26,678 nt of DNA from a virus. The position numbers and the translations under genes are program-made. The stretch is from positions 1 through 26,678 of the IMG/VR virus record IMGVR_UViG_3300030202_001955. One strand, given 5' to 3'. Shown one piece after another: positions 1,809 to 26,678 of this stretch (positions are counted from its first letter, which is position 1; every line of letters begins with the position of its first letter). A model generated the notes under the pieces. It had not been told where the DNA came from. It did not search any database and saw nothing but the letters and a program-made list of their open reading frames with translations.

Positions 1809-3218
1809 ATGGCGATTCTCGCGGCCCCGTCTTCGACCTCTAACCCTGTCATTTTGAAGGGTATTGGTGATGACCTTGTTGTTGCTGGATACGCGTCCGT
1901 TGAAATGGTTGACAAGCAAGGCGACCTTATCACCCGTTCAGCACTAAAAGATGCATTTAGCGGGTTCATGAAAGCAGAAGGATTTCGCAATGTTCAACTC
2001 GCACACTCTAACATTCAAGTAGGAACAGTTATTCCTTCTTACACTGATTCAAGTGGTCGTCTTTGGAAATCCGAAGTTGACGATACAGGAATGTTCGTAG
2101 TCATTAAACTACGCGGGGACATTGAAAAAGCCCGCGAAGTTGCATCCGAAATCCGTAAGGGCAACCTACGGTCTTTCTCAATTGGCGGTCAAGCCTTTGA
2201 GAGAGTCAATAAGAGCGACCAAACACGCGGGGATTACCGCGAAATTCGTCGTATGGAACTCCATGAGGTCACAATTTGCGAGAAAGGTATTAACCCCGAA
2301 GCGCAATTTCGCATCCTCAAGGAAGACACAGGAAATGATGATATGACCAACCCAATGAGCGAACTGCAAAGTGTCCTTGAGAGATTGTCTAAGAAACTTG
2401 ACGATAAGGATAAGGAAGAAGATAAAGAAAAGGGCTTTATGCCCGACATTAAAGACCTTGACGACGACGGCGACAAGAAAGAACCTATGGTGGAAGCACG
2501 AAAGGACAAGAAACCCGCAATGGACGACGAGGACGATGAAGACGAGGACATGATGTATTCCGACGACAAAAAAGAAGACAAGGACGATGATAAAATGGAC
2601 AAAGCAGAAGATATGATTACGACAGACTATTTGACTTGGTTAGAGTCAACCGTGAAAAGCGCAGGGTTTGACCCAAGCGCGGCTCGCGACCACTTTAACA
2701 AAGGCTACGGACCGGGTGAATCCGGCTTCGACCACCGCGGACAAGGTTCCCTTGAAGGTGCTGGCGAAGAAGATTCCGGCAAGCGACCTAAGATGGACAT
2801 GGGAGCCGCACCAAGCGGAAACAAGAATGTCATTAAGGGTGATTACCTAAACGCTTCAAATGTTTCATCCAGCGAAGTTGAAGCCGCTTACGAAGTGTTC
2901 AAGGCCGCGGCACAAGAACAACAGTTCAAGTCCGACCTTAACAACCAATTCACACAAAGGTTCCTAAAAGAACAGAAGCAAGAAGCAGATGCAGTCGCAA
3001 AGGCTAACTTCGATTCTCGCGGACCAATGGTTGAACTACAAAAAGCAGTCATCGCACTCAATGAGCGCATCGACAATGTTTCAACTGTTTCAAGCACAAT
3101 TGCAAAGTCCGCTGACCGAGCAACTGTCACTATTCCCGAAACCGCCGAACTTGCAGACATGTCGTGGGACGATGTTCACCGACTTGCTGGTAAAGCGTTG
3201 ACAGGAGGCGATTATTGA
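1809..3218 (+). CDS. Prohead maturation protease fused to capsid scaffold
   Basis: This 469-residue protein would template procapsid assembly and then digest the scaffold. Residues 15-173 match the HK97/XkdF-like serine prohead protease family: GYASVEMVDKQGD near the start, a candidate catalytic His66 in LAHSN, a candidate nucleophile Ser124 in SFSIGG, and the ELHEVTICEKGINPEAQF block (150-167) that ends these domains (usually E.SLV..PANP). Residues 180-270 are extremely acidic and lysine-rich (DDEDDEDED). Residues about 350-430 form charged helices likely to be coiled coil. The C terminus (SWDDVHRLAGKAL) is a short amphipathic helix of the kind scaffolds use to touch the coat protein. The stop overlaps the capsid gene start as TGATG, so the two are translationally coupled. 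The ATG has only a weak upstream site. Protease and scaffold in one frame is a known arrangement; the catalytic residues are inferred from motif position. Confidence 0.85.
   Translation: MAILAAPSSTSNPVILKGIGDDLVVAGYASVEMVDKQGDLITRSALKDAFSGFMKAEGFRNVQLAHSNIQVGTVIPSYTDSSGRLWKSEVDDTGMFVVIKLRGDIEKAREVASEIRKGNLRSFSIGGQAFERVNKSDQTRGDYREIRRMELHEVTICEKGINPEAQFRILKEDTGNDDMTNPMSELQSVLERLSKKLDDKDKEEDKEKGFMPDIKDLDDDGDKKEPMVEARKDKKPAMDDEDDEDEDMMYSDDKKEDKDDDKMDKAEDMITTDYLTWLESTVKSAGFDPSAARDHFNKGYGPGESGFDHRGQGSLEGAGEEDSGKRPKMDMGAAPSGNKNVIKGDYLNASNVSSSEVEAAYEVFKAAAQEQQFKSDLNNQFTQRFLKEQKQEADAVAKANFDSRGPMVELQKAVIALNERIDNVSTVSSTIAKSADRATVTIPETAELADMSWDDVHRLAGKALTGGDY
2343..3218 (+). other. Candidate internal in-frame start giving free scaffold protein
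   Basis: An ATG at the exact border between protease domain and acidic scaffold begins MTNPMSELQSVLERL. AGGA lies 9 bases upstream, in the same register as other starts in this window. Use of this start would give a 291-residue scaffold without the protease. Nested protease and scaffold genes of this kind are known (lambda C and Nu3). Use of the start here is inference. Confidence 0.4.
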
Positions 3219-4366
3219 TGGCAAGAAATTATGTAAGAACAGTGCAAGACATGGAGCGATACTATTACGGTGGCGCATCCCAAACCGGCTACACCTACGG
3301 TGCAGGTGACATTCTCAAGGCAGACGCGCCTTTGATGTCAACCACCGCTGGAACATACCAAGCGATTTACGGACGAAAAGTATGGTCACAGTTGAACCAA
3401 GAGTTCAACGCGTTTTCTATCCTTCCTAAGAAACCGTGGGAAAGAAGTGGATGGCGTATCCTTACTGGTCGCGCTGACTTTACCAAAGGTGGCGGAATTG
3501 CAGAAAACGGAACTCTACCGGACACAAGCCGACCGGAGTTCCTACATGTTGCCGCAAAGCCAAAGACCGTCGCGCACACTTTCGACCTATCGGAAGTTAG
3601 CATGTTCTTGTCCGACAAGGACGACGGATTGGGCGATGTTCGCCAAGTTCTAAAGGAAGAGATGGGTAAGCACCACGCTGAACATATCAACCGAATGATG
3701 CTTGAAGATGTTGACACACCAGTTGGCAACGACTTTGAATCCCTTGACCGTCTTACCTCCGACCCGGACAAGATGACCACAGGAACAGGCCATGTAAGCG
3801 CAACTACTGACCACGACATTTACTCTATTACCCGCGACGGAAGTGCAGATTTCCACAGCGCAGAAGTTGATGTTGCGGCTTCAAGTTCAACTAACAGAAA
3901 CCTTTCTTTGAATCAACTTGATGGATTGTTCCAGCAACTATGGACTCGCGGTGGTAATCCGAAGGTTATGCTAACTGGATATGATACTCTAATGAGAGTT
4001 CAACAGTTGCTACAATCCCAACAAAGATTCATGGACAGCAAGCGTGTCACTCCTACCTACAACGGTGTGAAAGGTGTTCCCGGTCTTGAGGCTGGTTTCA
4101 TCGTCGCAACCTACAACGGTGTCCCAATGATTCCAACAAAGGATATGCCACAAGATGGAGCAGGTTCTCTATCTCGTATGTATTATCTTGACACGGATTA
4201 CCTGTGGTTCCAAACCGCAATCCCGACACAATACTATGAATCCGGTATCGAAACCGGCGACCCATTCGCGATTAACCGTCTTGGACAAGAAGGACTCTAT
4301 CGAACTATGGGTGAGATGTGGTGTTCTTTCTTTGGTGCAAGTGGCTCTATTCGTGACCTACAATGA
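3218..4366 (+). CDS. Major capsid protein, HK97 fold
   Basis: The 382-residue product is the shell subunit. The ATG overlaps the previous stop by one base, and AGGAGG lies 9 bases upstream; an in-frame TTG one codon earlier is less likely. Features typical of the family, in order: a flexible N-terminal arm; residues 50-72 with GRKVWSQLNQEFNAFSILP; a glycine-rich E-loop-like hairpin at about 78-105 (FTKGGGIAENGTLPD); a strand (KTVAHTFDLSEVSMFL); a long spine-like helix at about 138-164; an A-domain segment with NPKVMLTGYDTLMRVQQLL (247-265) and VPMIPTKDMP; and the late GLYRTMGEMWC strand. The length is normal for a mature HK97 coat without a delta domain, fitting a separate scaffold encoded just upstream. 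The highly ordered codon use and strong ribosome site suit a very abundant protein. Family assignment is confident from pattern and context; no covalent crosslink residues were assigned. Confidence 0.88.
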   Translation: MARNYVRTVQDMERYYYGGASQTGYTYGAGDILKADAPLMSTTAGTYQAIYGRKVWSQLNQEFNAFSILPKKPWERSGWRILTGRADFTKGGGIAENGTLPDTSRPEFLHVAAKPKTVAHTFDLSEVSMFLSDKDDGLGDVRQVLKEEMGKHHAEHINRMMLEDVDTPVGNDFESLDRLTSDPDKMTTGTGHVSATTDHDIYSITRDGSADFHSAEVDVAASSSTNRNLSLNQLDGLFQQLWTRGGNPKVMLTGYDTLMRVQQLLQSQQRFMDSKRVTPTYNGVKGVPGLEAGFIVATYNGVPMIPTKDMPQDGAGSLSRMYYLDTDYLWFQTAIPTQYYESGIETGDPFAINRLGQEGLYRTMGEMWCSFFGASGSIRDLQ

Positions 4367-4380
4367 GGAGATGATTAAAT

Positions 4381-5801: not shown

Positions 5802-5811
5802 AGGTGATACT

Positions 5812-6419: not shown

Positions 6420-6422
6420 TGT

Positions 6423-8003: not shown

Positions 8004-8007
8004 TAAT

Positions 8008-8391: not shown

Positions 8392-8395
8392 TAAT

Positions 8396-9095: not shown

Positions 9096-9115
9096 GACAA
9101 GGCGGAGCAGATAAT

Positions 9116-11029: not shown

Positions 11030-11039
11030 GGTGAACAAG

Positions 11040-11183: not shown

Positions 11184-11620
11184 TGAAGCGCGACATGCAT
11201 ATTGGTGGTGAACGACCGCTTCACATTCGTGCTGTTGAGAAAGACACTTTCATCGCTGAACCCGTTGAAGAAGTGTTCAACCCCGAAGCCGCAAAAACAG
11301 ACGGTAATCCATTTCCCGAAGAACAACAAGAAGAAGTTGTTGAAACCACACCTGTTGGAGAAGAAGGTCCAACTGATTACGAATCCTTAACCGTTGAAGA
11401 ACTGAAAGCACTCTTAAGAGCGCGCGGTCTTGATGTTAAAGGTAAAAAGGCGGAACTCGTTGCTCGCCTAATTGAAGCGGATACCCCCTCGGAAGAGGCA
11501 GTTGAAGTGGATGAAGTCGTTCCTTCGCAAGAAGCCGCGACAAGCGATGATGGAGTAAGTGAGAACAATGCCGAAAATAGCAGACCCGATGAGCCTCTTG
11601 GTGAACAGCCAAGCAGTTGA
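11183..11620 (+). CDS. Acidic protein with a SAP domain
   Basis: The 145-residue product starts at ATG overlapping the preceding stop; an earlier in-frame GTG at 11174 is less likely. Residues 66-100 (YESLTVEELKALLRARGLD then VKGKKAELVARLIEAD) form a clear SAP motif: two helices joined by a bend with the conserved Gly and Lys. SAP domains usually bind DNA. The flanks are very acidic (EEQQEEVVETTP and SEEAVEVDEVVP) and look disordered. It precedes the chaperone pair, and its last 53 bases overlap the first chaperone. Its place between tail tube and chaperone genes is unexpected for a DNA binder; it may act as a protein-protein adaptor. Confidence 0.7.
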   Translation: MKRDMHIGGERPLHIRAVEKDTFIAEPVEEVFNPEAAKTDGNPFPEEQQEEVVETTPVGEEGPTDYESLTVEELKALLRARGLDVKGKKAELVARLIEADTPSEEAVEVDEVVPSQEAATSDDGVSENNAENSRPDEPLGEQPSS

Positions 11621-11930
11621 ACACGAAATACAAGCCGATGAAAGCGACCCCGATGTGGTCGTAAAAGTATGGGTGAAAGAATTATCTTTCATGCAGTTGC
11701 AAGAAGCAATCAAAACTTTTGTCACCATCACCACCGCTGGTGGAGTGGATATTGACCTCGCGGCATATTGGAAATACATGTTCGCAGAAGCAATTGAAAA
11801 GACCGAACCTCGTCTGTCTATACCGCAAATGTTGTCACTAAGACCATTTATCGCTAATCAAATAACCGCACTATTACCGCAACCACAGGACTTGATGAGT
11901 GGCCCTTTAGCGGATGGGGCGACAGAATAG
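11568..11930 (+). CDS. Tail assembly chaperone, first product (TAC1, gpG-like)
   Basis: The 120-residue product keeps tape measure and tube subunits apart before assembly. ATG is preferred, with GGAG 12 bases upstream; GTG at 11559 is only 3 bases from the site. The body starts with a strand pair (VVVKVWVKELSFMQLQEAI), as in many gpG-type chaperones, then helices with AAYWKYMFAEAIEKTEP. Seven codons before the TAG stop lies a CCCTTTA slip site that leads into an overlapping open frame with the features of the second chaperone. It overlaps the SAP gene, which is typical of translational coupling. Position between tube and tape-measure genes is the usual one for this pair. Confidence 0.72.
   Translation: MPKIADPMSLLVNSQAVEHEIQADESDPDVVVKVWVKELSFMQLQEAIKTFVTITTAGGVDIDLAAYWKYMFAEAIEKTEPRLSIPQMLSLRPFIANQITALLPQPQDLMSGPLADGATE
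11903..11909 (+). other. Programmed -1 ribosomal frameshift site (CCCTTTA)
   Basis: The heptamer reads C CCT TTA in the first chaperone's frame, the exact X XXY YYZ form. A one-base back slip gives CCC TTT AGC and continues in the frame of the second chaperone, open from base 11858. The first-frame TAG follows 18 bases later. A possible downstream stem pairs GCGGA (11910-11914) with TCCGC (11950-11954). Frameshifting at this gene pair is the rule in long-tailed phages. Confidence 0.8.
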
Positions 11931-12190
11931 AGGACGCGTATCAATACCTCCGCAACCCGTCGCCCGATTTGGATTACGGCTTCAATGCGGCCTCGTATTT
12001 TGTCGCGAAACATTATGGAATCAGTATGCAAGAAGTGTGGGACATGAGTATAGAAGCATTCGAGCAGTCTTTCATTTGGGCTAATGCCGCTGAAAAAATA
12101 AAAGCGGAACAAATAGAAGATGCGACCGCGGGTGCTAAGAACAAGACACGCGTAGGGTCAACCCACGGCGCGATGCCATTTAGTCAATGA
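11909..12190 (+). CDS. Tail assembly chaperone, frameshift extension (TAC2, gpGT-like)
   Basis: This segment is read only after a -1 slip at CCCTTTA and is fused to the first chaperone, giving a 207-residue product (114 residues from the first frame plus 93). It begins SGWGDRIEDAYQYLRNPSPD, then has a long helix with MQEVWDMSIEAFEQSFIWAN and a charged tail. No start with a ribosome site exists inside; the only candidate is a TTG at 11969 with no site before it. The extension probably holds the tape measure, as in lambda gpGT. The stop is joined to the tape-measure ribosome site as TGAGGTGA. Confidence 0.75.
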   Translation, partial: SGWGDRIEDAYQYLRNPSPDLDYGFNAASYFVAKHYGISMQEVWDMSIEAFEQSFIWANAAEKIKAEQIEDATAGAKNKTRVGSTHGAMPFSQ

Positions 12191-12199
12191 GGTGAGAAT

Positions 12200-13912
12200 G
12201 TGGCAGATGATTTAGACGCAGTGGCAAAACAAGTCGAAGACTTGACAGTCGCGCTTGAACAATTCGGTGTCTTCAATCTTAACGCATCAAAGAAAATGGG
12301 TATCTTTGAAAAACAACAATCGAAGATTGCAACTGCTATCAAGAAATCTCCTATTGTTGGTATGGTTCAAACACTTGGTGGATACGCGAAAGCGATTGGT
12401 AATGTCACTAAAATCACAGGACAAAATGTGACTATGAGCGCGGAACAAAAAAAGAAACATCGCGAAGGTATGACAGTGATGCAGAAATTAGTCGCTGGCA
12501 CTATCGCACATGGTGTAGCGCAGAAAATGAGCAACAAGATGTTGAAGATTGCAAACAACAGATTCACGCGTTTGATGACAACAGCGTTCTCGCTGGTCAG
12601 TATTTTCCTTATTGTTGGTTTTGCTTTAGCCGCTTTGTCAATAGCGTTTGATGGGGCGAATAGCCCTATTCTCAAATTGACCGAAGACTTAGGACCACTC
12701 CATGACGCGATGCAAGGGTTGGTGCTTGTCATATCGGGAGAAGGTGATGAAGGTGGTGCGGCGGCGGCATTTGATGTGTTAGCCGCATCAATGCTTGGTG
12801 CATCAGTCGCCGCGCTTGCGCTTGGTGGCACAGTGGGTGTGGTAGTAGGGTTCTTGATTTTAGCCGCCGGAGCAGGTCGTATGTTTTACAATGAGTTTGG
12901 TAATTTGTATGCATCTATCGGCGTTGCTATTGGTATTTTTATGACTTTGATTGGTTCAGTTATGATGTTGAAAACTGTTTTTGCCGCGTTGAAAGCGGGA
13001 AGTCTTATCGCGGTAAAAGGCACAGTAGGTGCAGTGGTAGCAGGTATTGGTATGGTCATTGCTGGTATTGCCGGTCTTGTGGCGTTTGCGATGGGTGCTG
13101 GTGAAGGTATCAAGGGTGTTCTTCTTGGTATTATTAGCGCGTTGCTCGTATTTGTTGGATTATTTATAGCAGGTGTCGCTATAATCCCCGCGGCTATCAT
13201 CGCTTTTGTTGCTCTTTTAGTTGCAAGTATTATTCGTTATTGGGACGAGATAAAAACATTCTTGGGTGACGCTTTAGATTGGTTGATTGGTGTCGGCGGT
13301 TTAATTTTCTATGGTTTCATCTCCGGTCTTACTCTCTTAGTTGGCACTATCATCGGTTTGATAACAGGTGCTGTTGGTCTTGTTGTCGGTGCTATTACTG
13401 GTGTAATAAATGCTATATTCCAAGTTGGTAAATCATTCTATACTGATGTTATCAAAGGTGGAGGCTCACTCATCAAATGGTTCATCAGCATACCCAGCAC
13501 AATCAAGAAAGGGTTTGTTGACGGGTTCAAGAGCATCTTTAATGGTGTCACAGGCATTTACAACGGTTTTGCGAAGAAAATGAAATTCAAAATACCTAAG
13601 TGGGTTCCGGTTGTCGGTGGTAAGAATTTCAAACTACCCACTATTCCAAAGTTAGCAAAGGGTGGTGTTGTAAATGACCCAACGCTTGCTATGATTGGTG
13701 AGGATGGACCGGAGGCTGTTATCCCACTTAACCGCAAGAATAACCCTAACGGTATTGGTATAGGTGGTGGTGGTGTCACAGTCAACATCAATGTTGGTGG
13801 TGTCACAGACAGGACCGATAAGCGCGCATTAGCGAAAGAAATTGGTGATTTGATACGCGCTGAAATGACTCGCGGCGGTCGCTCTCACGGAAACAGGAGG
13901 TCGGGTGTATGA
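12200..13912 (+). CDS. Tape measure protein
   Basis: The 570-residue product sets tail length and is probably ejected into the host with the DNA. It starts at GTG 4 bases after AGGTGA. The first 120 residues are charged helices. Residues 129-150 and about 190-405 hold at least five long hydrophobic, Gly and Ala rich segments, likely to act as membrane-spanning helices on ejection. The C-terminal motif LAKGGVVNDPTLAMIGEDGP (485-504) with EAVIPL is the hallmark of tape measures. Gly-rich VNINVGG follows. At 1.5 angstrom per residue it would specify a tail of about 85 nm. Its last bases overlap the next gene by ATGA. No lysozyme or peptidase domain is visible. Confidence 0.88.
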   Translation: MADDLDAVAKQVEDLTVALEQFGVFNLNASKKMGIFEKQQSKIATAIKKSPIVGMVQTLGGYAKAIGNVTKITGQNVTMSAEQKKKHREGMTVMQKLVAGTIAHGVAQKMSNKMLKIANNRFTRLMTTAFSLVSIFLIVGFALAALSIAFDGANSPILKLTEDLGPLHDAMQGLVLVISGEGDEGGAAAAFDVLAASMLGASVAALALGGTVGVVVGFLILAAGAGRMFYNEFGNLYASIGVAIGIFMTLIGSVMMLKTVFAALKAGSLIAVKGTVGAVVAGIGMVIAGIAGLVAFAMGAGEGIKGVLLGIISALLVFVGLFIAGVAIIPAAIIAFVALLVASIIRYWDEIKTFLGDALDWLIGVGGLIFYGFISGLTLLVGTIIGLITGAVGLVVGAITGVINAIFQVGKSFYTDVIKGGGSLIKWFISIPSTIKKGFVDGFKSIFNGVTGIYNGFAKKMKFKIPKWVPVVGGKNFKLPTIPKLAKGGVVNDPTLAMIGEDGPEAVIPLNRKNNPNGIGIGGGGVTVNINVGGVTDRTDKRALAKEIGDLIRAEMTRGGRSHGNRRSGV

Positions 13913-15084
13913 CGAAGGTTCGATTGATTCGCAACGATGGGGCAGTGTTAGTCGTTGATGTGACCGATTACAGCCTCAACATGACGCGAAGCGTTCCTGT
14001 TTTGCCTGTGCCGGTTCTTGGTGAGCGATACGCTATTGACTTGAATATGGTCACAGCAGACTTCAAACTGAATGTTATTCTCGCGGATGATGATTGTGCG
14101 GCAAACTCATTTGATAAAACAGCGGCTAAAGCATCTATTGATTTTAGCGCGTTAGCAAACAGTGATGGTGGCACGCACCAAGCATACATGTCGGGTGGTA
14201 GCCCGAATGTTTCTGTTAACGATTTACATGATTTATTCTTTGAAATTGAATCAACTTACACAGGAGAGAATACAGTTCGTCCCCCTGTCCGCATCAAATT
14301 CAACAAGAACTCGGCATCGCATAGCGCATCAAATACACCATCACAAGTGCTTGTTGGTATTCAAGGTATCACCACGGATAATGCATTAGCCTCCGCGGTC
14401 AAGACTGCGTGCGAAGCGGCTAATTTCACACAGCAATTAACAACTGGTGGCGGCACATCTTTCAGTAGCGCGTTCACTATTACCGTATCCAACGGTTTGA
14501 AAACAAATAACGCGAAACTAACATTTACTCAAACCGAAAAAGGGGCAGGTGGCAACAATAGAACACCTATATTCAAGAAAGGTTTTTCCGCTTTCATGCC
14601 TCTTTTTGACGAGTTTGCAGGTGGAACAGATAAGTCATGCAAAAGCGCGGGAGATAAACTCCAAGACCTTATCGCGTATGTAGGCAATGCCAGCCTACTC
14701 GGAACATCGGGTTCTGCTCTTGGTGGTCGCGCAGACCCCGATGACACCAATTCTTTGATTGAATCGGACATCTCTTTATCGGATAAGCAAACCGCTGACT
14801 ACATTATTGGAATGCAACTCCCTTACAACTCACTTGTCCAAAGCACATCAGCAAACGATGATTACATCGAACGCAATTTAATTATGGTGACAGGTAGGTC
14901 GGATGCAGACCAACAAGACTCAAAAGCAAACACACTTGATGTTGGTGTTCTTTTTGACCCTACCAACAAATTCACAGGTATCGCTGGGACAGTTGTAGCA
15001 ATGTCATTCAGTTTCATTGCTGGTGAAAATGTGTATGAAGGCTCATTAACCTTCATGCCTGTCGATTTTATTGTGGGGAGTTAA
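13909..15084 (+). CDS. Tail-tip or distal tail structural protein
   Basis: The 391-residue product follows the tape measure, with AGGAGG 8 bases before its ATG and an ATGA overlap. Residues 1-65 (VRLIRNDGAVLVVDVTDYSL; later AIDLNMVTADFKLNVILADD) resemble the first strands of distal tail and baseplate hub-ring proteins. About residues 100-245 form an insert with NALASAVKTACEAANF, TFTQTEKGAGGNNRTP and FAGGTD, the same type of module seen in the connector. The final part returns to long strands (TVVAMSFSFIAGENVYEGSL). It probably links the tube end to the giant fibre gene that follows. The role rests on gene order and a general pattern, not on a specific family. Confidence 0.5.
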   Translation: MTKVRLIRNDGAVLVVDVTDYSLNMTRSVPVLPVPVLGERYAIDLNMVTADFKLNVILADDDCAANSFDKTAAKASIDFSALANSDGGTHQAYMSGGSPNVSVNDLHDLFFEIESTYTGENTVRPPVRIKFNKNSASHSASNTPSQVLVGIQGITTDNALASAVKTACEAANFTQQLTTGGGTSFSSAFTITVSNGLKTNNAKLTFTQTEKGAGGNNRTPIFKKGFSAFMPLFDEFAGGTDKSCKSAGDKLQDLIAYVGNASLLGTSGSALGGRADPDDTNSLIESDISLSDKQTADYIIGMQLPYNSLVQSTSANDDYIERNLIMVTGRSDADQQDSKANTLDVGVLFDPTNKFTGIAGTVVAMSFSFIAGENVYEGSLTFMPVDFIVGS

Positions 15085-15086
15085 GT

Positions 15087-18000
15087 GTGGCGGTTATTGG
15101 TTTATCGAGTCACGCGCTATTCTTTAATGGTGTAAGTGATAGCGTTGTTTGCCCTCAAGGTGATTTTACCAAAACTGGCATCAAACGCGTTCTTAATGGT
15201 GTTGAAGCGCGCTCATCAGCACCTATACTACAAGACGATGACGGACATCGTTTCGCTAACCCCAACAATCAATCGTTGAATAATTTCACAGTAGAAGCAT
15301 GGGTATCACCGGACTGCGGTGGAGTTATCGCCAGTAAAGCAGGTTTGTTTGAACTTCGTATGGGGGACATCAATGGACCGGATGCCGCTTCATTCAAAGT
15401 TGAGTTCTCTAACGGTGTGACCGCGATAGCATCAAGCGCAAATAGTTATCCAACAGCGGCGGCATCATTCATCAGCAACAATGTTGGCTACAACACAGGA
15501 CAGCGCGAACTGTATCACATCTCCGGCGAGTTCAACGGAGAGCAGGTCAAACTTTATGTCAACGGAGAATTGATGGCTTCGCATAAAATGAACAAAAAAT
15601 ACTCATGCAATATCAATGACCAAGACTTATTCATTGGTGGTAAAGGTGGTGAGTATCGCGGATACATAGAGTCACTCCATTGGAAAGCGGATGTGTCAAC
15701 TATGGAATCGCGCGCAAAGCCGTTTATGCTATCAACAAGCACTCTTGGTCTTTGGAGATTTGAAGAGCCTGTTGATGTTGACAGCACTGTGTTTAAAATC
15801 ACATCTAATGTAGCGGCAGGTGCAACATCAATCACTATTGGGGCAACTCAATGTCAATCGCTTTACGAACTGGTGAGTGGTAAAAGCGACACACTGGCAA
15901 CAAACTACACACTTGATAGTCTTGGTAATTACCGAGTTGCTAATGCGGCACATAGCGGTGGTGCGCAAGTTATCAGCGTAGCCCATACGCCGTTCAATCT
16001 TCTCATAAACCCAACAGCGACAGATATTCTCACAGGTATCCCTAACGGTTCTCCGCCGGAAAGAGTTCGACTCAAAGCAATCAACACCAACGGAACTATC
16101 ACAGTTGACAGCATCCACCTCGACTTCGGTGTATCACTTGATACAGGTTCGCGCGGTGTATTACACGCACGAACAGCATTTGACACAAGCAACAATTTTG
16201 CAAATGATTCAACAATGGTTCTTGTTCGTTCGGACATACTCATCGACGGAGAAAGCGGGAAGCCGTATCAAAGAGTTGGAACAGGTAGTCAAGCGATTGA
16301 CAGAACAGGAGCGATGGTTATTGATGAGAGTGCCAATGAGTTTCACGGCTTCTTGTATTCGCGCTCACTTGCTGTCAATACGAATAACTTTGCACCTTCT
16401 TCTTGGAGTATTGCGGAGCGTTTCAAAACAGGACACACAGGTCGTCATCATTTTACTCAATTAGAAGGACACCCTTACCTGCGTTTATTACCTCCAATCC
16501 ACGAACAAGAATTAACAAGAACGATTGATGGAATAGCAGATGACGCGCTAATCACATTTGCTGGGAGTTATCTTGGACTCAAAGATTCTTTACCAATTAA
16601 CAGCAAAGTTGCTGTCACGCATACAGCGTTCAACGCTCGTATTGTTGATGTAAAAACAAGTGCGACAACTAACGGTGTTGTTCTCAACGGTATGCATGGA
16701 ATAGAAAATAACCGCAACGGTGTAATCGCAATATCAGTTGATGACATCGAACCATTCTTGTTGAAAGGTGGAGGTATTGGTGTATCATCAACCACTGATT
16801 CTCAATACACAAAACATCTTACACCCGAAACAGAATCACGCGTTGCTATTCTTGAAGTGTCGGGATTGACCGCTGGTTATGTTGAGATTCATTACAACGC
16901 AGTTGACCTTACAGGTGGTAAAATGGGTTTAAGCAACCCTGCATTGCTCATCACCAAAACCGTTCCCGATGGTGGTTGCTTTCTTAATTCAAAGCGCGTA
17001 GCCGAACATATTGCTGATGCCGTTGGTGCTGGCGCGACAATACACTCACCGGGCGGTGTTGTGATTGCCTCATCGAAAGATGTTGGAAGTGCGCAAGTAG
17101 CGATGAAACCTCATCACCTTGTTGGTGATAACACAGGTGGTATTGAATACGACGAAGAATTAGATGAAAGCCTCATACCTTCAAATCACACACCTCTTAG
17201 CGCAGGTGATGAAGCACGCGCGCCACCTCAAGGTGTTGGCACAAAACTTCACCCATCGGTATATCACAAAATACATATTCAACCCAATCAAAGAAGTCAA
17301 AGCGACCCACCTGTTGGAGAAGCCCCAACTCACTATCAAGAATCTGTTCAATTCGCATCACAGAAAGGTGGCGCGTTTGAGATGTTTGACATTATTGACA
17401 ATGATAAAAAAGGAGATTCATACATTTTTATCGTTCAACCATCTAAACGCGAACGCACAATGCAATTGTCAAGAGTCACACCTGTATCAATAGATGCTAA
17501 CGATTCAACTTATTTCACTATTGAATATGTTCAATCTAATGTGCGCGTCACTTCTATGGAAGTTAATGATTCGGGAATGGGTCGTTTTCTTGTCATGGAG
17601 GGTCAAGGGTTGATGAGTGATGTCGCAGACCAAACTGTATCATACTCCGGTGATGGTAGTCGCGATTCTCACATTGTTAAAGAGATACAACCGGGTGCGC
17701 CTGTCGTATCAGTCACTCTTGGTGGCGCAGGTCAAGGTGCAATCAACACAAAACCAACTTGGGACCCAGCCGCTTTATCGCGAATTGGATGGAATACGCG
17801 ACATGATTGCACAACAATGGTGCAATCATTCACAAGCACCACTCTCACTGTTGTTCCTTTGAATAATAATGGCACTTATCTTGACAGTTGGGGGACATAT
17901 TGTTTTCCGGCAACAGGCCGTATCTATTTAGAAAACGGCGCATACGCTGAATATGCATCAAAAAGTGGTAGCGGATTTACATTCGCAGGTGGAGCAACAC

Positions 18001-21000
18001 ATCTTGGAACAAGTAAGTATGTCTTAGCCAACGGGAGAGATACTACTTCATTCGCGCAATGGGCAATTGAAAACTCTATAACCGCGGGAATAAAAATACT
18101 ACTTGACCCACTTTTCGATTCGTTATCTATTTGCGGTGATGGAACTACAATAAATGACAGGTTGTTTCAGTCGATTGGTTCTGTAAAACATGATTACCAA
18201 CTCGGAACACAGTATGCAAGCACACGCGCGCTTGCTGAAATACCACTCTTCCCTCAACAGTTCTTTGAAGACCGCGATGCTGGTCTTTTCCCCGGACCGG
18301 ATAACAGCATGAAGTTGCATCTTGATGCAACAATGACTGCACAAGCATGGAACCCTTCGCCTGTTGGTCGTCGCGCACCAAACTTCCCCGCAACAGACTA
18401 CGAAGCATTCGGTTATTATCAATATGCGAAAAGCAACAATTTACCTATCCGAAGCATTGTCACTGAAATCACAAGAAACGCTTCGACCAACACAATGAAT
18501 CTTAATACAAATGTTATACCCGATTCAAAATTTGACTCTTTCGGTGATGTATTAGGTGTTAGCACACAAAGAACGCGAAGAATTGTATTAGGTAATGGTG
18601 AATGGGCTTATTATGAAAAAACCGGAGTTGGGGTATGCCAACTTACTCTAAGCAATTTGGCTTCTCATTCGAGTGAAAATTTCTTTTCAACTGTTCGTGT
18701 TGGTTCACAAGTTATAGTTGGTGAATTACCCGACAACTCTAATTTTCCACTTGCTGGTGATGTTGGTTATGGTTCATCCGCTCAAGAATATCGTCGTCCG
18801 TTTTACTATGACCGCGGTAGCGTAATGACGCAGGGTGGTAATCTTGACTATGGATTGCGTCAATATGTTAGCGCAGTCGAGTTCAAGGCTGGTCCAACAT
18901 CAAACCCTCATTTACCGCGCATTAAAAGTAAAAACGCGGTGCTGGATTTGATACTCTATACGCCGTTATCAAGTCCACAGGAATTTACTTTTGAGGGTGA
19001 TTTACCAAAAGGTAAGTTATCAACAAATTATCATTTCGCGGGCATCAATGAAGTCACAGGAAGAAAATACAGAATCAATTACAATTCTTCAACTAATGCA
19101 AATTTGATTACTGTTGAAGCACACCCAATACTTGACTCAACAGCACCCGCTCTTTCGCAAGGAGATAAACTCACACTGCTTGGTGTTTATTCTGTTGCCC
19201 CGACAACTATGCCTTTGAAGATTGAAGACGGTATTGCGAACGCAACATGGAATAATCCGTATTGCCCCGGTGGACTGCGCTATGGTGATACTGTTTGGAT
19301 GAATATGCACTACACCAACCCTCACGCCATAGAAGGAATGTTCGCAAAATCGCGCGGTGTGTTAAACGAATACGAAGTATGGCGAGGCTTCAACGGTGGT
19401 AAGGGTGAGTTAGGAACAGAAGCGCGAGATACATTACCAATCGAGAACTTTCTCATAGGTGATACCTGTCTTGAAACTGCTCGCAACTTTGTTCAACATG
19501 TGAACAAGACCATCGAACTTAACTGGATTGAACTTGGTCACGAAACAGACCCAACACAAGCCGATTACAGTGCGCCACCTATCGTTGCATACCTCGACCC
19601 TTATCTTAGCACAGAACAACACGCGCGAGTCTTACTCTATGATGTAGCACATGACCGTGAGTTCATCGCGTTTCATGACCTACACATGCAAGTGCAAACA
19701 AACCCAACCACTCCAACAATCAACGGGCTTGATGTAGCGGCTGGTTTTAGAACACAAAACAAAGATAAGCAACTTATCACTAAATATAATTCTCAAACAC
19801 TCAATAGCGTATCATACACTTATGAAGATGGTCATGGTAAGTCACAGTTTGTTGAAGGTGCATACGCGCATCGCGCTTGGTATTTGATGGACCAGTCGTT
19901 TATGGTCACTACTGGTAGTGCGGCATTGCAACATTACAATCGCAAAGAACGAAACACTCCACATTATGTCAAATTCGGTCATGAAACAACACAGTATGGT
20001 CAAGGTCGCGTATCTCAATCAACGGTTGATATGGACATAGCCGCTTTGCGCCACGCTGAAACTATACCTTACAATGAATCCAATGATGTTCAACAAAATA
20101 GCCTAACAGCACCTCAATTTACAGCAACATTTTTTGACACACCCGAAGGAACTCGCGTCATATCGGCATTCCTTTGTTTGAAAGGTAAGCGCGCAAATGC
20201 TAACAATCTTTCATCTCATTACGAAAATAGATTGCAACACTTACCGCATTGGAGTGAAATGGACTTTATTCGTCGCTTGACGATAGATATGGGTGAAATA
20301 GGAATCAAAGAAGGTGTGACTGATATTGAAGCCGCCGCAAAAGAAGTTGTTCGTCTTATCAATCAAGGTGGTGCATTCAATGGTCGTAGCAGTCAACGAC
20401 GACCATCCGACCAATACGCCGGAGAAGGAGAAAGGTTCGACATCAATCGTCGTAGTATTTCGACAGGTGGCACAGATACAGAAGAACCAACAGACGCTAC
20501 CGCGGTTCATCAACACGCTGACTTTGCTGTGACTGGTTCAACTCACGACCCTGCACCGTTTTGGATGGATAACGCGTTCACATCATTTGACCGTGGTTCA
20601 CACATGGGTTATCTTCGCGCACATTTAGGTCGCGTAGTTGAAGACGCTAACGGAAACGAAGGATACAGTATCGTCATACATAGCACAGTTCCGGGTGCAA
20701 CAGGTCGTAATTTCTGCGTTTGGCTTGACAACAGCAAATCACAAGCCGAATACAAACCGCAATTCCTTATCGGTCACGGTGGTCGTTTCCGTAATTTTTA
20801 CTGCGCGCCGCCGGAAATGGCCGGAGAAAACATGCACCCTGCGCCAATGCCAATTGACAAAAACGGTAAGCCATTTGCACCAATTACAACATTAAGAGAG
20901 TATGTTGCTTTAGATGAAGCCTCGGATGAGTTCTTTACAAATCAACATCTTGGGTTTGATAAAAATTACAACACGACGATGGAGGGAGAAGAAAGTCCTA

Positions 21001-24000
21001 ACACCGGAGCAACAACTGGACGCGCTTCAAACACAGGTAATATGGAGTCTTTTGAGAACAGTGGTCAAAAGTTCACTGTGCGCGAAGGATTACAAACAGG
21101 TAGTCGCGCTAAAGCACGAATAAATTTTGGTGGTATTGTAGCCGCTGGCATTCCCGGTTTCGCCCCGGACGCAGGTATATGGGGATTCGGAGAAGATGGA
21201 AAAGATACAGGTCGATTTATGTCTTCGATATATGGTAATCATTTACTTACCACAGATGTAAATTACAATGTGTATCCTAAATATGCACCAACCGCACAAA
21301 CAGGTGACGGTGTAGTAGGAACTCAATCTTTGTATGGATTGAAAATGGTTGACCATCGAGGAAAAGCGCACATTCTTCGCTATATTTATCGAACAGAAGG
21401 TCAAACTTTTTCGCATAAAAACTCCGTTATGCCACCAACCATTGATGAAGAAACGCTGATTTACTTTGATGACCGTGATATTGCGCAAGGTGGTTTTACG
21501 ATTGGTGCAAACATGTGGGGTAATGGAGGAAACGGAACGCCTTTCTTTTACGAAACAGGAGCAGTTGGACAGGAATCTCGCAGTTGGCGAGGTAATAAAT
21601 GGAGAGGGGTTCATACACCTAACGCTGGATACGCCGTTGCAGTTGACCCCACAATGGCTGATAACACTTTCAGTTTGACACAAGGCGGTGGCGCGGCTGG
21701 TTATCACGGTGGTGGAATTTGGCATCATCTTCCTAATACTGACGATGTTCTTGGATGGATGGGTTTTCCCGATAGTGGGTTAATTTGGATGGCTATACCC
21801 GCCAGTGCATCATTATATGGTGAAATCGGTGCTGTTTTTTCATACACTTCGCGCACTCATAATGGTCGTGGTGGTCCACATCATTTCTTCGGTATCAATG
21901 GAGAATTGATGACGAGTGGTAATATGAATGATGTGTGGTTTGACACAGCCGCAAAGTGTGGACCAACAAGCATTTCTCAAAACAAAACTCCTGTCATCAT
22001 CAGTCCACACTTAAATCAAACAACCATAGTGACTGACGAATTGATAGCCGCGGCTACTGCTTATGCTTTCACCGTTGACCCTAATGAAGATGACCAATAC
22101 TTTGATTGTTCACATTTGCGCGCACCGGACGGTCGCACTTACGGAGAAATCATGGGGAACAATGCGCAGACTGCTGTTAAAATAACCAAATTTAATCGCG
22201 ATAAAGAAGTCATACCACTCAAGAATATGTTTTCTGTATCGCTTTCGCGTGATTGGGGACTTCAAGCAAGCACAATAGATTCGCAGGTTATCACTGGTTC
22301 TGCTGGTGGTCAACTCGGTGGTGCGCAAGTGAATCATCGAAAAAGAGAAAGAATGAATGATACGGGCTACCTACCATACACTTTGTTGCAGATAACCACT
22401 CGATATAAAGGAAGCAACGCGAACACTGCTACACCAATACTCATCGACCAAACAAACAATTCTGTTCCGGTTGATGATTGGAAAAAACATTTGCGTGGCG
22501 AAAAACACACACGATATGAAGGTGACCATATCACACCATCTCTTGGTGCATCAACATACGAAATTAACGCGCAATCGGGTTCATTAACATTGCCCGGTGG
22601 AACTGCTCGCACAACTTATCAAATAGAACTGCGCGACCCTGCGCATTTTGCTGTGCTTGGTCGTCAATACGCTTGGCAACTACAACATGTTAGCGGTGGA
22701 ACAAATCTCAATTTTGATTCATCGACTGAATTTAGCGGTGCGATTGATGGCTCATGGTCACCATTTAGACGAATGGATATTGATAAGGATACATATTTAC
22801 ACTGCGCGGCTTTTAGTTCTATTGATAATCCAACTAATGTTGCTAATCATCTCATCGGGTGGAAACATGATGACTCGGTAGGTGACTTCAAAGATACTTT
22901 AGCAGTTGACCTCATTATGCAACCATTCAAATTTGAAAACGACATACAAGGATTGCGTCTTCGCGCTAATCGAAGAGGTAATCCTTTGTTGTATTTCCGA
23001 GGCGCGCAAGACAGCATTGACAGTCATGTTCCGCTTTACTTTGGTGGTGGTTTTAGTGGAGTTGTAATGGACATCAATGATGGGTCAAGAGTTGACTATT
23101 CAACGCATAATAAACACCCATACGCTAAAGGACCAACGGGTAGTGCAGGTATGCAAGACATCGGTGAAAAGATGGGTGCATACGCGCTTCTTGACACAAC
23201 AGCGTTGTTTGCTATGTTCCCCGCCGCTGTTCTTGCAAACCAACACCGCGGTGAACCATCACCACCGTTCGCTAACCAAGACGCTATACTCAACCCCGAC
23301 ATTGATGGTAATACCAACACTCACACTATTCCTAACACAACTTACACCAATGTCAAAATCGCTCAACCAACACCTGTTGTATTGAGATTTGCTCACCCAT
23401 ACGCGCGATATGACGATTCTGTTAACAGCGTTGCTTACATGGTCTTTGGTCCGGGTCAAGCGGTTCCTAAGCATTGGAGCGGTGAAGGTGCTACTTTAAC
23501 AACATCAGTTGAACCTTCTGCTAAGTGGACAGTTGCAAACAAAATATATACCGCGCTTGACGGCGCAGTTGGAACAACATTCAATGCAGGTGTGCCATCG
23601 GGATATTTCCTACCAAACGAATTAAGCAACGGAACTCTTAATGGTGCGGCAAATCAATTTTTACCACCAACAGACGCATATAGCGCGAACAATGCATTTC
23701 CTTACACAACCTTCCGACATTGGGAGCCGTCGTATGGTTCACCAAACAGCGCGTTTAATCAAACTTTTTCAACAGAAGCACGCTATGTTAGCAATCATTT
23801 TGTTAGTTTTAATTCCGGCGCACAAAGCGCGGCCAACGAATACGCTCATCCATTCTCGCATTATCGGGGTGCTACAAGATTCGCAAACAGTCATTGGGAA
23901 TTAAGTCAAATGATATATCATCTCGATGGTGGATACACTGCTGGTGGTTCTTGGTTTGACAATAGCGTGCGAAAAAATGCACCACACCCTGTCACAGCAA

Positions 24001-26678
24001 CACTTGTCAATTCAGCAAACGCGGCTGTCCAATATATTGACAGAATTGGTTTAAACGCGACAATGTTCCGAGTTGGTTCACAAGTGTTAACCGATTATGA
24101 CCACGACATTAACGCGGCTGTTCCCGATGATGTGTTTTTAATTGACGCAACGCGTTGTCAAAACAGCGAAGAGTTGGGTGCTGTTGTTGCGGCGGCAATC
24201 AACACTTTTCCCGGTCGCGCTAATCTCAAGGCTCTCGGTGGTTCTTTCTTACCATCGTTCCAAGATGCTCAACGACAAGATAGATACAGTTGGATTGATG
24301 TTGGTGATATGGGGACCTATGTTGCTAATGCGGGTGGTTCAGTCGTAGGAACAGTAAGTGTCACAGGTGGTGCTTTACCGAAAAATTTACCGGAATATGG
24401 ATGGATAAGACTATCTAATGGCACTAAATCGTATTATGGTTATTACTCACACTACGATAAAACGAACGGAACATTCATTCTTGGTGTTAATCAAAGAAGC
24501 AATTTCGCGCATTTAGAAGAACCTGCGATTGGCGGAACAGGTAATGTGACCAGTGTTGATACTGATGCTGGTGCATTGAAGGTGTTTGTGTGGAGTAAAA
24601 CTGGTAATTTGCGATGGGATAATGGTTTTCAAAATGCGACAGACGGCACACGCTCAACAAGCGCAACAGCATCGGCTGATGCGTCGAACAGTCCTTTCGA
24701 CCACTACGCAACAACTCAAGTTCATTTTAGCGGTGTCACCGACGCAATAGACAGAACGCGCGCGGTTGGTGCTGTTGGTTGGCATGGTGAAAGATATTCA
24801 TACTTTAACAGTCTTACCATCACAGACGGCACAGCAAAGGTAGCCGCTGGTCTTGGTGCTTGGCATCCTATGATGGGTTTTACACCATACGGTGCGGCAA
24901 CCTCTTGTCATCAATCAAGTTCTATCAAGTGGGTTTTACGCCCAGCAACAGGAGAAGGTGATGAAGAACATGTTCAAGGTGTGTGGGAACCAAAAACAGA
25001 TAATCACGACGCAATAGGTCTTCATCAACGCCACTTCATTGTCGTATCATACGAAGGTGACTTGCCTATTATAGCAAAGGCTTCGCGTAATGGTCAACAA
25101 ACTTGCGGTGACATGTTGCAATTAAAATGGTCAACAGGTGGTCAAGGAGGGACAGTGACAGCGTATCACAACGAGAGATTCAACAACGACCGATACAATG
25201 CTGAATCAAACGCTGGTCCTCATGTCGAAGCAATCTATGATACCACTATAACAATGCCAACAAACGATGACGCGAACAGTCGTCTTTGGACACACGCGGC
25301 AACAAACCCGTCAGCGTTAACACAAATGGAAACATGTTTATTCCCAACTGGTGATTTGTTTTATGATAAAACCGAAAATAAAAACAAAGACTTGTATGCT
25401 AATGACCCAATTTTTGATAGTGAAGCACACACTGTTGACAATATTGGGTATGATAATTACGAAGGTCACCGCCGTGGAATATACAATCATTGGAAATCGA
25501 GAAACGCGGCACGCAACTTTTTCACAGAACATGTAGTTTGGAAAAGAATGGGTGGAGGCAATCTCACACTCCCTGCTCAAAATGCGCGTGGGCTTGGTAG
25601 CATACCGTGGGCTGTTCACAAAGTTGGTAGCGCGTATGTTAAGTTCGGAGAAACAATATACGGCAATGTTCGCTTTTCGTTTGAATCAACCAACGCCGCT
25701 ATGTATCCAATTATACAAGCACAAGAGTTAGCGCATCCAGCATTAGCCGAACAATACCCTTACGAAGTAAGAAACGCGCTAACAATACCCAACGAAGAGA
25801 TGCAATTCAAAGAGATGGTTGTCGTTGATGATACAGGTCAAGAACACATCATCGCCGGGGGTTCACCGCTCGGTGTTGTTATTCGCGATTATGAGTTAAT
25901 ACACGACCGAGAAAGTGAAGGTCTTGCACCTGCTTTAGCAGGTTCGGGTATCGCACCAAACATGAAAATACAACTCCCCGACCATGATGAGATACCGGGC
26001 AACATTCTTGTTCGTGCTGGATTCGATAGACTCCAAGCATATCAAAACGAAACACTTGGTGGTGGAGGATTGCAAAACCCAACACAACCGTCACAGACCG
26101 TGAAGGATGCTTTTGAGTCCACAGTTGCAAGCCCGCGAACAGAACCATTTTGGGAGCAAGAAGGATACGAACACATCAATCAAAACCCCAACAACTTCCC
26201 CGACAGCAACAATAGTCTTCAATCAAACAACATTATCGAAACGGCATACGAACCTCATGACCGCGCTTTATATTTTCACATTACCAAAATGGGCTACACT
26301 TACACCGAGCGCGAACCTATGGCTATTGTCAATAATGCTATGACTATCAATCGTCTTACTGTTGCTGAAATAAGTCAATCTCTTGGTGCTATTCTAACTA
26401 ATGAAGACATTGAACCTTTGGTATGGCAACAAGACCCTACACCCGATGGTCGTTATTTTATTTCTATCAACGGAACAATTGCATCATTTACAGGGTTAGC
26501 AGACGCAAGCGGAGGGGTAGGTTCACCAAAGAGAAGATTTACAGGCGTTGTTTTTGCACCGGATTTTACAGCCAAAGGAAACGACCAAATCAAACCATCA
26601 TACTATATTCCCGCAGGTTCAACAAGACAGTTTGCCGCTCGTCGCTTACGCGACCATGCAGAAGTGAGTGGCAACAGC
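15087..26678 (+). CDS. Giant LamG-containing tail fibre/adhesin, 3'-truncated by the window
   Basis: One frame stays open from GTG (GGGGAG 6 bases upstream) to the last base, at least 3,864 codons, more than 400 kDa. I read it across its whole length and saw no in-frame stop. Residues about 62-227 are a LamG/concanavalin-like lectin domain: LNNFTVEAWVSP, YHISGEFNGEQVKLYVNGEL, LFIGGKGG and the closing GLWRFEE. Such domains bind sugars, so host attachment is likely. The rest is mostly beta-type and poor in long helices. Residues about 627-665 and 3018-3050 contain a helix like the inserted modules of the connector and tail-tip genes. Residues about 1760-1810 are a low-complexity linker rich in Arg, Ser, Thr and Glu. 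Further enzymatic domains are not recognised. It is the last tail gene in the window, where receptor-binding proteins lie. Fibre versus central tip protein cannot be settled without the end of the gene. Confidence 0.8.
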   Translation, partial: MAVIGLSSHALFFNGVSDSVVCPQGDFTKTGIKRVLNGVEARSSAPILQDDDGHRFANPNNQSLNNFTVEAWVSPDCGGVIASKAGLFELRMGDINGPDAASFKVEFSNGVTAIASSANSYPTAAASFISNNVGYNTGQRELYHISGEFNGEQVKLYVNGELMASHKMNKKYSCNINDQDLFIGGKGGEYRGYIESLHWKADVSTMESRAKPFMLSTSTLGLWRFEEPVDVDSTVFKITSNVAAGATSITIGATQCQSLYELVSGKSDTLATNYTLDSLGNYRVANAAHSGGAQVISVAHTPFNLLINPTATDILTGIPNGSPPERVRLKAINTNGTITVDSIHLDFGVSLDTGSRGVLHARTAFDTSNNFANDSTMVLVRSDILIDGESGKPYQRVGTGSQAIDRTGAMVIDESANEFHGFLYSRSLAVNTNNFAPSSWSIAERFKTGHTGRHHFTQLEGHPYLRLLPPIHEQELTRTIDGIADDALITFAGSYLGLKDSLPINSKVAVTHTAFNARIVDVKTSATTNGVVLNGMHGIENNRNGVIAISVDDIEPFLLKGGGIGVSSTTDSQYTKHLTPETESRVAILEVSGLTAGYVEIHYNAVDLTGGKMGLSNPALLITKTVPDGGCFLNSKRVAEHIADAVGAGATIHSPGGVVIASSKDVGSAQVAMKPHHLVGDNTGGIEYDEELDESLIPSNHTPLSAGDEARAPPQGVGTKLHPSVYHKIHIQPNQRSQSDPPVGEAPTHYQESVQFASQKGGAFEMFDIIDNDKKGDSYIFIVQPSKRERTMQLSRVTPVSIDANDSTYFTIEYVQSNVRVTSMEVNDSGMGRFLVMEGQGLMSDVADQTVSYSGDGSRDSHIVKEIQPGAPVVSVTLGGAGQGAINTKPTWDPAALSRIGWNTRHDCTTMVQSFTSTTLTVVPLNNNGTYLDSWGTYCFPATGRIYLENGAYAEYASKSGSGFTFAGGATHLGTSKYVLANGRDTTSFAQWAIENSITAGIKILLDPLFDSLSICGDGTTINDRLFQSIGSVKHDYQLGTQYASTRALAEIPLFPQQFFEDRDAGLFPGPDNSMKLHLDATMTAQAWNPSPVGRRAPNFPATDYEAFGYYQYAKSNNLPIRSIVTEITRNASTNTMNLNTNVIPDSKFDSFGDVLGVSTQRTRRIVLGNGEWAYYEKTGVGVCQLTLSNLASHSSENFFSTVRVGSQVIVGELPDNSNFPLAGDVGYGSSAQEYRRPFYYDRGSVMTQGGNLDYGLRQYVSAVEFKAGPTSNPHLPRIKSKNAVLDLILYTPLSSPQEFTFEGDLPKGKLSTNYHFAGINEVTGRKYRINYNSSTNANLITVEAHPILDSTAPALSQGDKLTLLGVYSVAPTTMPLKIEDGIANATWNNPYCPGGLRYGDTVWMNMHYTNPHAIEGMFAKSRGVLNEYEVWRGFNGGKGELGTEARDTLPIENFLIGDTCLETARNFVQHVNKTIELNWIELGHETDPTQADYSAPPIVAYLDPYLSTEQHARVLLYDVAHDREFIAFHDLHMQVQTNPTTPTINGLDVAAGFRTQNKDKQLITKYNSQTLNSVSYTYEDGHGKSQFVEGAYAHRAWYLMDQSFMVTTGSAALQHYNRKERNTPHYVKFGHETTQYGQGRVSQSTVDMDIAALRHAETIPYNESNDVQQNSLTAPQFTATFFDTPEGTRVISAFLCLKGKRANANNLSSHYENRLQHLPHWSEMDFIRRLTIDMGEIGIKEGVTDIEAAAKEVVRLINQGGAFNGRSSQRRPSDQYAGEGERFDINRRSISTGGTDTEEPTDATAVHQHADFAVTGSTHDPAPFWMDNAFTSFDRGSHMGYLRAHLGRVVEDANGNEGYSIVIHSTVPGATGRNFCVWLDNSKSQAEYKPQFLIGHGGRFRNFYCAPPEMAGENMHPAPMPIDKNGKPFAPITTLREYVALDEASDEFFTNQHLGFDKNYNTTMEGEESPNTGATTGRASNTGNMESFENSGQKFTVREGLQTGSRAKARINFGGIVAAGIPGFAPDAGIWGFGEDGKDTGRFMSSIYGNHLLTTDVNYNVYPKYAPTAQTGDGVVGTQSLYGLKMVDHRGKAHILRYIYRTEGQTFSHKNSVMPPTIDEETLIYFDDRDIAQGGFTIGANMWGNGGNGTPFFYETGAVGQESRSWRGNKWRGVHTPNAGYAVAVDPTMADNTFSLTQGGGAAGYHGGGIWHHLPNTDDVLGWMGFPDSGLIWMAIPASASLYGEIGAVFSYTSRTHNGRGGPHHFFGINGELMTSGNMNDVWFDTAAKCGPTSISQNKTPVIISPHLNQTTIVTDELIAAATAYAFTVDPNEDDQYFDCSHLRAPDGRTYGEIMGNNAQTAVKITKFNRDKEVIPLKNMFSVSLSRDWGLQASTIDSQVITGSAGGQLGGAQVNHRKRERMNDTGYLPYTLLQITTRYKGSNANTATPILIDQTNNSVPVDDWKKHLRGEKHTRYEGDHITPSLGASTYEINAQSGSLTLPGGTARTTYQIELRDPAHFAVLGRQYAWQLQHVSGGTNLNFDSSTEFSGAIDGSWSPFRRMDIDKDTYLHCAAFSSIDNPTNVANHLIGWKHDDSVGDFKDTLAVDLIMQPFKFENDIQGLRLRANRRGNPLLYFRGAQDSIDSHVPLYFGGGFSGVVMDINDGSRVDYSTHNKHPYAKGPTGSAGMQDIGEKMGAYALLDTTALFAMFPAAVLANQHRGEPSPPFANQDAILNPDIDGNTNTHTIPNTTYTNVKIAQPTPVVLRFAHPYARYDDSVNSVAYMVFGPGQAVPKHWSGEGATLTTSVEPSAKWTVANKIYTALDGAVGTTFNAGVPSGYFLPNELSNGTLNGAANQFLPPTDAYSANNAFPYTTFRHWEPSYGSPNSAFNQTFSTEARYVSNHFVSFNSGAQSAANEYAHPFSHYRGATRFANSHWELSQMIYHLDGGYTAGGSWFDNSVRKNAPHPVTATLVNSANAAVQYIDRIGLNATMFRVGSQVLTDYDHDINAAVPDDVFLIDATRCQNSEELGAVVAAAINTFPGRANLKALGGSFLPSFQDAQRQDRYSWIDVGDMGTYVANAGGSVVGTVSVTGGALPKNLPEYGWIRLSNGTKSYYGYYSHYDKTNGTFILGVNQRSNFAHLEEPAIGGTGNVTSVDTDAGALKVFVWSKTGNLRWDNGFQNATDGTRSTSATASADASNSPFDHYATTQVHFSGVTDAIDRTRAVGAVGWHGERYSYFNSLTITDGTAKVAAGLGAWHPMMGFTPYGAATSCHQSSSIKWVLRPATGEGDEEHVQGVWEPKTDNHDAIGLHQRHFIVVSYEGDLPIIAKASRNGQQTCGDMLQLKWSTGGQGGTVTAYHNERFNNDRYNAESNAGPHVEAIYDTTITMPTNDDANSRLWTHAATNPSALTQMETCLFPTGDLFYDKTENKNKDLYANDPIFDSEAHTVDNIGYDNYEGHRRGIYNHWKSRNAARNFFTEHVVWKRMGGGNLTLPAQNARGLGSIPWAVHKVGSAYVKFGETIYGNVRFSFESTNAAMYPIIQAQELAHPALAEQYPYEVRNALTIPNEEMQFKEMVVVDDTGQEHIIAGGSPLGVVIRDYELIHDRESEGLAPALAGSGIAPNMKIQLPDHDEIPGNILVRAGFDRLQAYQNETLGGGGLQNPTQPSQTVKDAFESTVASPRTEPFWEQEGYEHINQNPNNFPDSNNSLQSNNIIETAYEPHDRALYFHITKMGYTYTEREPMAIVNNAMTINRLTVAEISQSLGAILTNEDIEPLVWQQDPTPDGRYFISINGTIASFTGLADASGGVGSPKRRFTGVVFAPDFTAKGNDQIKPSYYIPAGSTRQFAARRLRDHAEVSGNS

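Follow-up and report, generated by a model that had tools for sequence, protein, structure and literature searches.

The last gene of this viral fragment is one giant frame, whose product we read as a tail-tip scaffold that would carry exchangeable receptor- or glycan-binding cassettes in a magrovirus, with a probability of roughly 0.7. A tail-tip recognition device is the best reading because three lines of evidence converge on it: the position of the gene, the lectin fold at the N terminus of its product, and the exchangeable binding modules carried by its relatives. Anything said here about presence in the virion, tail-tip location, symmetry, stoichiometry, and receptor is what we infer.

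The giant frame and its conservation

The window (the whole stretch of DNA analyzed) is a complete IMG/VR record, a linear fragment of 26,678 bases. Its last gene (Table 1) is a single forward frame with zero stops that is still open at the edge of the record, and the coordinates and size given for it in an earlier note, made from the letters alone, were borne out. The frame starts with GTG, and the stop codon of the upstream gene lies 2 bases ahead of this start. By simple arithmetic for random sequence with equal codon use, the chance of an equally long open frame is ∼e^-185. The visible part (3,864 versus 570 aa) is indeed almost seven times as long as the tape measure protein, as had been claimed, and the whole protein, sized from relatives, is ∼9 times as long. 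The giant gene directly follows the genes for the tape measure and distal tail proteins, in the window as well as in the relatives examined.

Relatives that continue past the window edge were found by searching with the last 564 residues, and their 30 complete frames supply the stop that the earlier note had proposed to look for. Most of these frames (27/30) encode 5,100 to 5,980 aa; the other three, broken or shortened, are those of two near-identical contigs, G015 and G022 (2,912 + 2,003 aa), and that of G029 (960 + 4,411 aa). The chaperonin gene of G029 is split as well as its giant gene, which suggests sequencing errors in that contig. Because the giant protein of the nearest relatives measures 5,109 to 5,162 aa, the window copy is short of ∼1,280 residues, or about a quarter of the gene. 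In near-complete relatives, the giant gene takes up ∼15% of the genome. The N terminus is encoded by 107 viral contigs in IMG/VR and the most conserved core by at least 277; the frame is open to the limit of the sequence in 77/80 contigs found by the N terminus and in 75/78 contigs found by the core.

Alignments of 18 and 28 members show the giant protein to be collinear along its full extent, at 42 to 76% identity overall and at 43 to 76% identity to the first member in the alignment of 18. In comparisons of the window with close relatives, dN/dS was 0.11 overall and 0.05 to 0.16 in all 400-codon bins; the gene is under purifying selection. A chance frame or an assembly chimera is ruled out by the open frames of relatives, the collinearity, and the dN/dS values. 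The earlier note had named an in-frame stop or a chimera as grounds for withdrawing its claim; the frame proved open, and a chimera is excluded by independent contigs, whose copies of the protein align collinearly throughout.

The giant gene has diverged less than the genes for the tape measure and distal tail proteins and more than that for the capsid protein. Its best-conserved stretches sit deeper inside, with the N-terminal LamG domain ranking below them. The backbone comprises ∼5,000 residues and is invariant at its two ends and, internally, at many glycine, aromatic, histidine, arginine, and proline positions; in all complete members, the C terminus lies 3 to 21 residues past one invariant histidine. 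No tandem repeats were found in the gene by TRF, and in an hhalign comparison of all 260-residue windows the best candidate for a hidden internal repeat reached ≤56% probability over 49 residues. A giant adhesin or classical tail fiber built from repeats is disfavored on these grounds.

Table 1. Positions of the giant gene, its parts, and neighboring virion genes in the window
Feature	Position	Strand	Basis or remark
Prohead protease	1809..3218	+	Pfam Peptidase_S78, E 1.4e-9
HK97-type major capsid protein	3215..4366	+	Druskaviridae are the nearest named relatives, 33-34% identity
Tail protein, 637 aa	9116..11029	+	phrog_290 minor tail protein, E 7.7e-8
Tape measure protein, 570 aa	12200..13912	+	PHROG tail tape measure, E 1.1e-12
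Distal tail protein candidate, 391 aa	13909..15084	+	Synteny; directly upstream of giant gene
SD-like GGGGAG	15075..15080	+	6 bases ahead of the GTG of the giant gene
Giant gene, putative tail-tip scaffold	15087..26678	+	3,864 codons visible, 3' end missing; dN/dS 0.11
LamG/ConA-like lectin domain, aa 52-196	15240..15674	+	Pfam PF13385, E 3.5e-9; AF2 model
Beta-rich block, aa 210-845, unnamed	15714..17621	+	AF2 pLDDT mostly 80-95
Slot 1 (position approximate)	16926..16928	+	∼80-90 extra residues in one major clade, none in window
Separate small beta domain, aa 908-1009	17808..18113	+	AF2; after poorly predicted linker
Most conserved core, motif ENMHPAPMPI	20529..20906	+	83% mean column identity, divergent members
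Second confidently modeled block, aa 2009-2489	21111..22553	+	AF2 pLDDT mostly 75-95
Slot 2 (approximate)	21640..21660	+	GYxVGD-type insert in G010
Slot 3 (approximate)	22641..22796	+	GYxVGD-type insert, ∼200 aa in G010 and 60 aa in G024
Slot (approximate)	25455..25475	+	Insert in G025, phrog_460/2885-like
Second highly conserved core	25479..26096	+	75% mean column identity (alignment)

Lectin fold, unnamed folds, and inserted cassettes

Laminin_G_3 (PF13385) is the sole Pfam match in the visible giant protein, scoring 37.4 bits against a curated cutoff of 27.6. An AF2 model of aa 1 to 1100, built with 56 relatives, had a mean pLDDT of 77; aa 1 to 845 and 908 to 1009 were mostly well predicted and beta-rich, with a low-confidence linker at aa 847 to 907. 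Foldseek searches with this N-terminal model led to PAPP-A and neurexin LNS/LamG domains (TMt of ∼0.6 for neurexin), matches that confirm the lectin fold, a predicted LamG jelly roll whose sugar binding is putative. The lectin domain proposed by the earlier note was thereby upheld by Pfam as well as by the structure comparison, and the mostly beta character that it described holds for the modeled N terminus. Foldseek also returned receptor-binding domains of toxins, which fit a lectin fold of this general kind and say nothing about function. The PDB matches listed for the model of aa 1 to 1100 were of the ConA/LamG type and were not split by segment. The nearest viral structure model was an unnamed UniProt entry, 35% identical over 1,218 columns, which evidently belongs to the giant-protein family.

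A PDB sequence search with the beta-rich block at aa 210 to 845 gave zero matches. A second AF2 model covered aa 1300 to 2490 with 65 relatives (mean pLDDT 64), and the two modeled pieces of the giant protein comprise ∼1,100 to 1,200 residues each. The most conserved stretch was poorly predicted in isolation (pLDDT <50 over aa 1833 to 2004), as would be expected if its folding needs other parts of the protein or partners. Foldseek comparison of the second model with the PDB yielded zero matches at an E value of ≤0.001. Zero significant matches to PDB sequence profiles were obtained with aa 1 to 1100, with aa 1300 to 2490, or with the regions 2640 to 3880 and 3881 to 5162 (numbering of relative L005), four segments that span most of the giant protein; the 391-aa neighbor likewise had zero significant matches in this search. 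A translated search of phage records, haloviruses included, with the N terminus and aa 1001 to 3863 gave zero matches. The assertion that most of the length holds no nameable domain thus stood up to Pfam, PHROGs, PDB profiles, and Foldseek. The accompanying suggestion of carbohydrate-active modules did not, as zero carbohydrate-active enzyme domains were found and the modules are of the binding type only.

Length differences among members consist of whole domains inserted at a few fixed backbone positions (613, 2195, 2535 to 2590, 3160, 3490 to 3546, 3962, 4434 to 4460, and 4960 in the numbering of relative G003). The window member is lean in its visible part, with the N-terminal LamG domain only and empty slots. 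GYxVGD-type inserts occur in other members, and domains of this type are also present in very large virion proteins from other phages. At slot 4434, several members carry ∼300 residues assigned as propeller-like from weak profile scores (Pfam Beta-prop, E 2.4e-5) and a repeat pattern. Slot 4960 holds a LamG/ConA-like domain in three members (phrog_10356, E 5.6e-22 and 2.3e-21, with a weak Laminin_G_3 score).

As judged from 27 complete sequences, gain, loss, and exchange of these cassettes outpace change in the backbone. Over a backbone that is 96% identical, G034 and G028 differ by an entire propeller at slot 4434 (302 residues in the former, 11 in the latter). The propellers of G027 and G035 are 80.5% identical within a flanking backbone of 64% identity, and because the inserts are more alike than the backbone around them, this pair points to exchange. 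Between G018 and G019, the LamG inserts share 37.5% identity and the flanks ∼79%. Such variation at slots is what one would expect if receptor-binding modules sit on a constrained scaffold.

Proposed role and alternative readings

In the proposed mechanism, the backbone would form a giant single-chain scaffold, as a baseplate or adhesion device, at the distal end of a non-contractile tail. We infer this distal placement from the adjoining genes for the tape measure and distal tail proteins. The N-terminal LamG domain and the slotted cassettes would bind host surface glycans or S-layer glycoproteins, and a change of cassette would change host preference without rebuilding of the tail. Against this reading, neither the giant protein nor the 391-aa protein showed a recognizable hub, Dit, or known baseplate fold. 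Profile searches for a hub domain (Tal/gpJ/gp27-like) gave zero matches in Pfam, PHROGs, the PDB, and HCTV-1 tail proteins, hub folds being known to diverge past the reach of sequence.

Profile comparison also found no similarity of any giant segment to the tail proteins of HCTV-1 or vir519, a result that likewise counts against the tail-tip reading and also bears on whether the chain might be a polyprotein, cut by the prohead protease or another enzyme into separate tail or baseplate proteins. Zero similarity to the several tail proteins that are encoded separately in haloviruses argues against such cutting, as does the single frame in nearly all other contigs. The length, the absence of repeats, the alternation of conserved islands with variable stretches, and the low-confidence linker at aa 847 to 907 would all suit a polyprotein, and the split frames (2,912 + 2,003 aa and, in G029, 960 + 4,411 aa) could be tolerated if the parts separate; such splits, however, are seldom seen and may reflect sequencing errors. 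Overall, we regard a polyprotein as unlikely.

A very large adhesin or receptor-binding fiber was the suggestion of the earlier note. What survives of it is a giant protein of the tail module that bears a lectin domain; the expectation of a fiber fares less well, in that the protein is not fast-evolving but collinear, nonrepetitive, and more conserved than the tape measure and the distal tail protein. A long trimeric tail fiber or tailspike with a receptor-binding tip at one end, for which the tail-module position, the beta-rich N terminus, and the lectin domain would speak, is slightly less probable than a polyprotein: internal repeats were not detected, overall conservation exceeds that of the tape measure, and both ends are conserved, with an invariant C-terminal histidine. 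Moreover, neither the N-terminal LamG domain nor the C terminus is hypervariable, and variability resides in the internal inserted domains. Placement elsewhere in the virion, as neck whiskers, a decoration of the head, or a protein that is ejected into the cell, is improbable. In the relatives examined, the gene comes after the region of the tape measure and distal protein, and its LamG modules are seen again in the distal tail protein and in a halovirus gene next to the baseplate gene. In favor of such a placement, some insert profiles (phrog_10356 and phrog_460) are labeled head or connector in PHROGs, and the HFTV1 head has glycan-acting turrets (PMC12494034).

The preferred reading, a tail-tip scaffold with binding cassettes, has partial counterparts in known systems. 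In HVTV-1 (Druskaviridae), a LamG protein (gene 137) is likewise encoded directly after a gene annotated "tail baseplate," but it is a separate 367-aa gene without a giant scaffold. HFTV1, an archaeal tailed virus, has a putative glycan-binding tail-tip device (gp44 hub and gp42 tail fiber), with a carbohydrate-binding domain predicted in the baseplate hub (PMC12494034). That device is built of several smaller proteins, however, and a PDB profile search with the giant protein found no sequence relation to it. By analogy, HVTV-1 and HFTV1 would both support a function in tail-tip recognition. The families PHROG 2885 ("baseplate wedge," 4,179 positions) and PHROG 18802 (3,007 positions) are also very large and have the GYxVGD-type insert domain in common with the giant protein; this small domain is all that is shared, and the backbones are dissimilar. 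More tentatively, and at somewhat less than even odds, one collinear chain of ∼5,000 residues, its folds largely undescribed, may replace a multiprotein assembly of baseplate plus fibers in magroviruses and offer fixed slots for receptor-binding cassettes.

Laminin_G_3 has been reported from four magrovirus groups and listed there among the auxiliary metabolic genes (Xu et al. 2023, PMC10160649). In the relatives studied here, the domain was present in 14/16, with every match in the giant gene or in an upstream tail frame of 839 to 868 aa. The magrovirus Laminin_G_3 "auxiliary metabolic gene" is therefore probably part of the virion, a conclusion drawn from the relatives studied here.

Viral group, host, and neighboring genes

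The giant-gene contigs match the magroviruses (Magrovirales: Apasviridae, Aoguangviridae, and Krittikaviridae), tailed viruses of marine Poseidoniales (Marine Group II), by published group traits. These traits, which the giant-gene contigs share, are a halovirus-like capsid protein, a family-B polymerase, a chaperonin, a genome of ∼100 kb (90 to 110 kb) whose replication and virion modules lie on opposite strands, and a marine origin (PMC12999244, PMC10768690, PMC5332604). The capsid protein is 33 to 34% identical over 98% of the query to those of HCTV-1, HVTV-1, and HCTV-5 (profile E 3e-40). A family-B DNA polymerase is encoded in 11/14 relative contigs and a chaperonin in 12/14, that of G020 being of the thermosome type. 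G020 (102.9 kb) has its replication and virion modules on opposite strands; G024 (110 kb) and G021 (118 kb) are of comparable size, and no contig is certified complete. The host is most likely archaeal, with Poseidoniales taken from the literature on magroviruses. A search of genome collections for the host gave one match, L209 (PAUP01000059.1), a contig in a Cytophagaceae MAG. This contig is a near-identical virus (94% identity to the N terminus), and its placement in that MAG is probably mis-binning.

Magroviruses are among the most abundant marine viruses reported, and to our knowledge neither they nor their Poseidoniales hosts have been cultured. We know of no earlier identification of the magrovirus host-recognition device. 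The giant gene is a specific candidate for this device, with specificity suggested to be encoded in the inserted cassettes, and host-virus links could be traced by following cassettes across near-identical viruses. The giant protein is also a large unexplored source of protein folds. If the proposal is true, a single-gene tail-tip chassis would be a new host-recognition architecture in tailed viruses. We found no description of the giant gene in the magrovirus literature searched, of which coverage was partial, and an earlier report is possible; the accounts searched name only generic minor tail, tail fiber, or baseplate proteins.

Several other genes in these contigs deserve mention. Other very large frames are present in G020 (72014 to 78061, 2,015 aa; 94996 to 101928, 2,310 aa) and in G021 (5784 to 14900, 3,038 aa; 30522 to 37709, 2,395 aa); a Pfam and PHROG scan of the 2,015-aa frame gave zero matches. 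In the window, the small gene after the capsid gene (4381 to 4992) is poorly conserved, matching relatives at 31 to 42% over part of its length, in a module that otherwise shows good conservation. In one clade, the 391-aa distal tail protein is apparently duplicated (L198, 5425 to 7944 and 7954 to 9963; 839 and 669 aa), and the longer copy bears an inserted LamG domain. The tape measure is apparently reduced to ∼160 aa in the clade of relative G033 (L198, 4936 to 5424), in which the giant gene is full length, and the C terminus of this short protein matches that of the 570-aa tape measure of the window. With the tape measure cut to this size, G033-clade viruses should have a very short tail. 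Finally, a chaperonin gene lies on the opposite strand, from a few to ∼15 kb downstream of the giant gene, in G010, G020, G021, G024, G025, G027, G028, G033, and G036, and its product might help to fold virion proteins.
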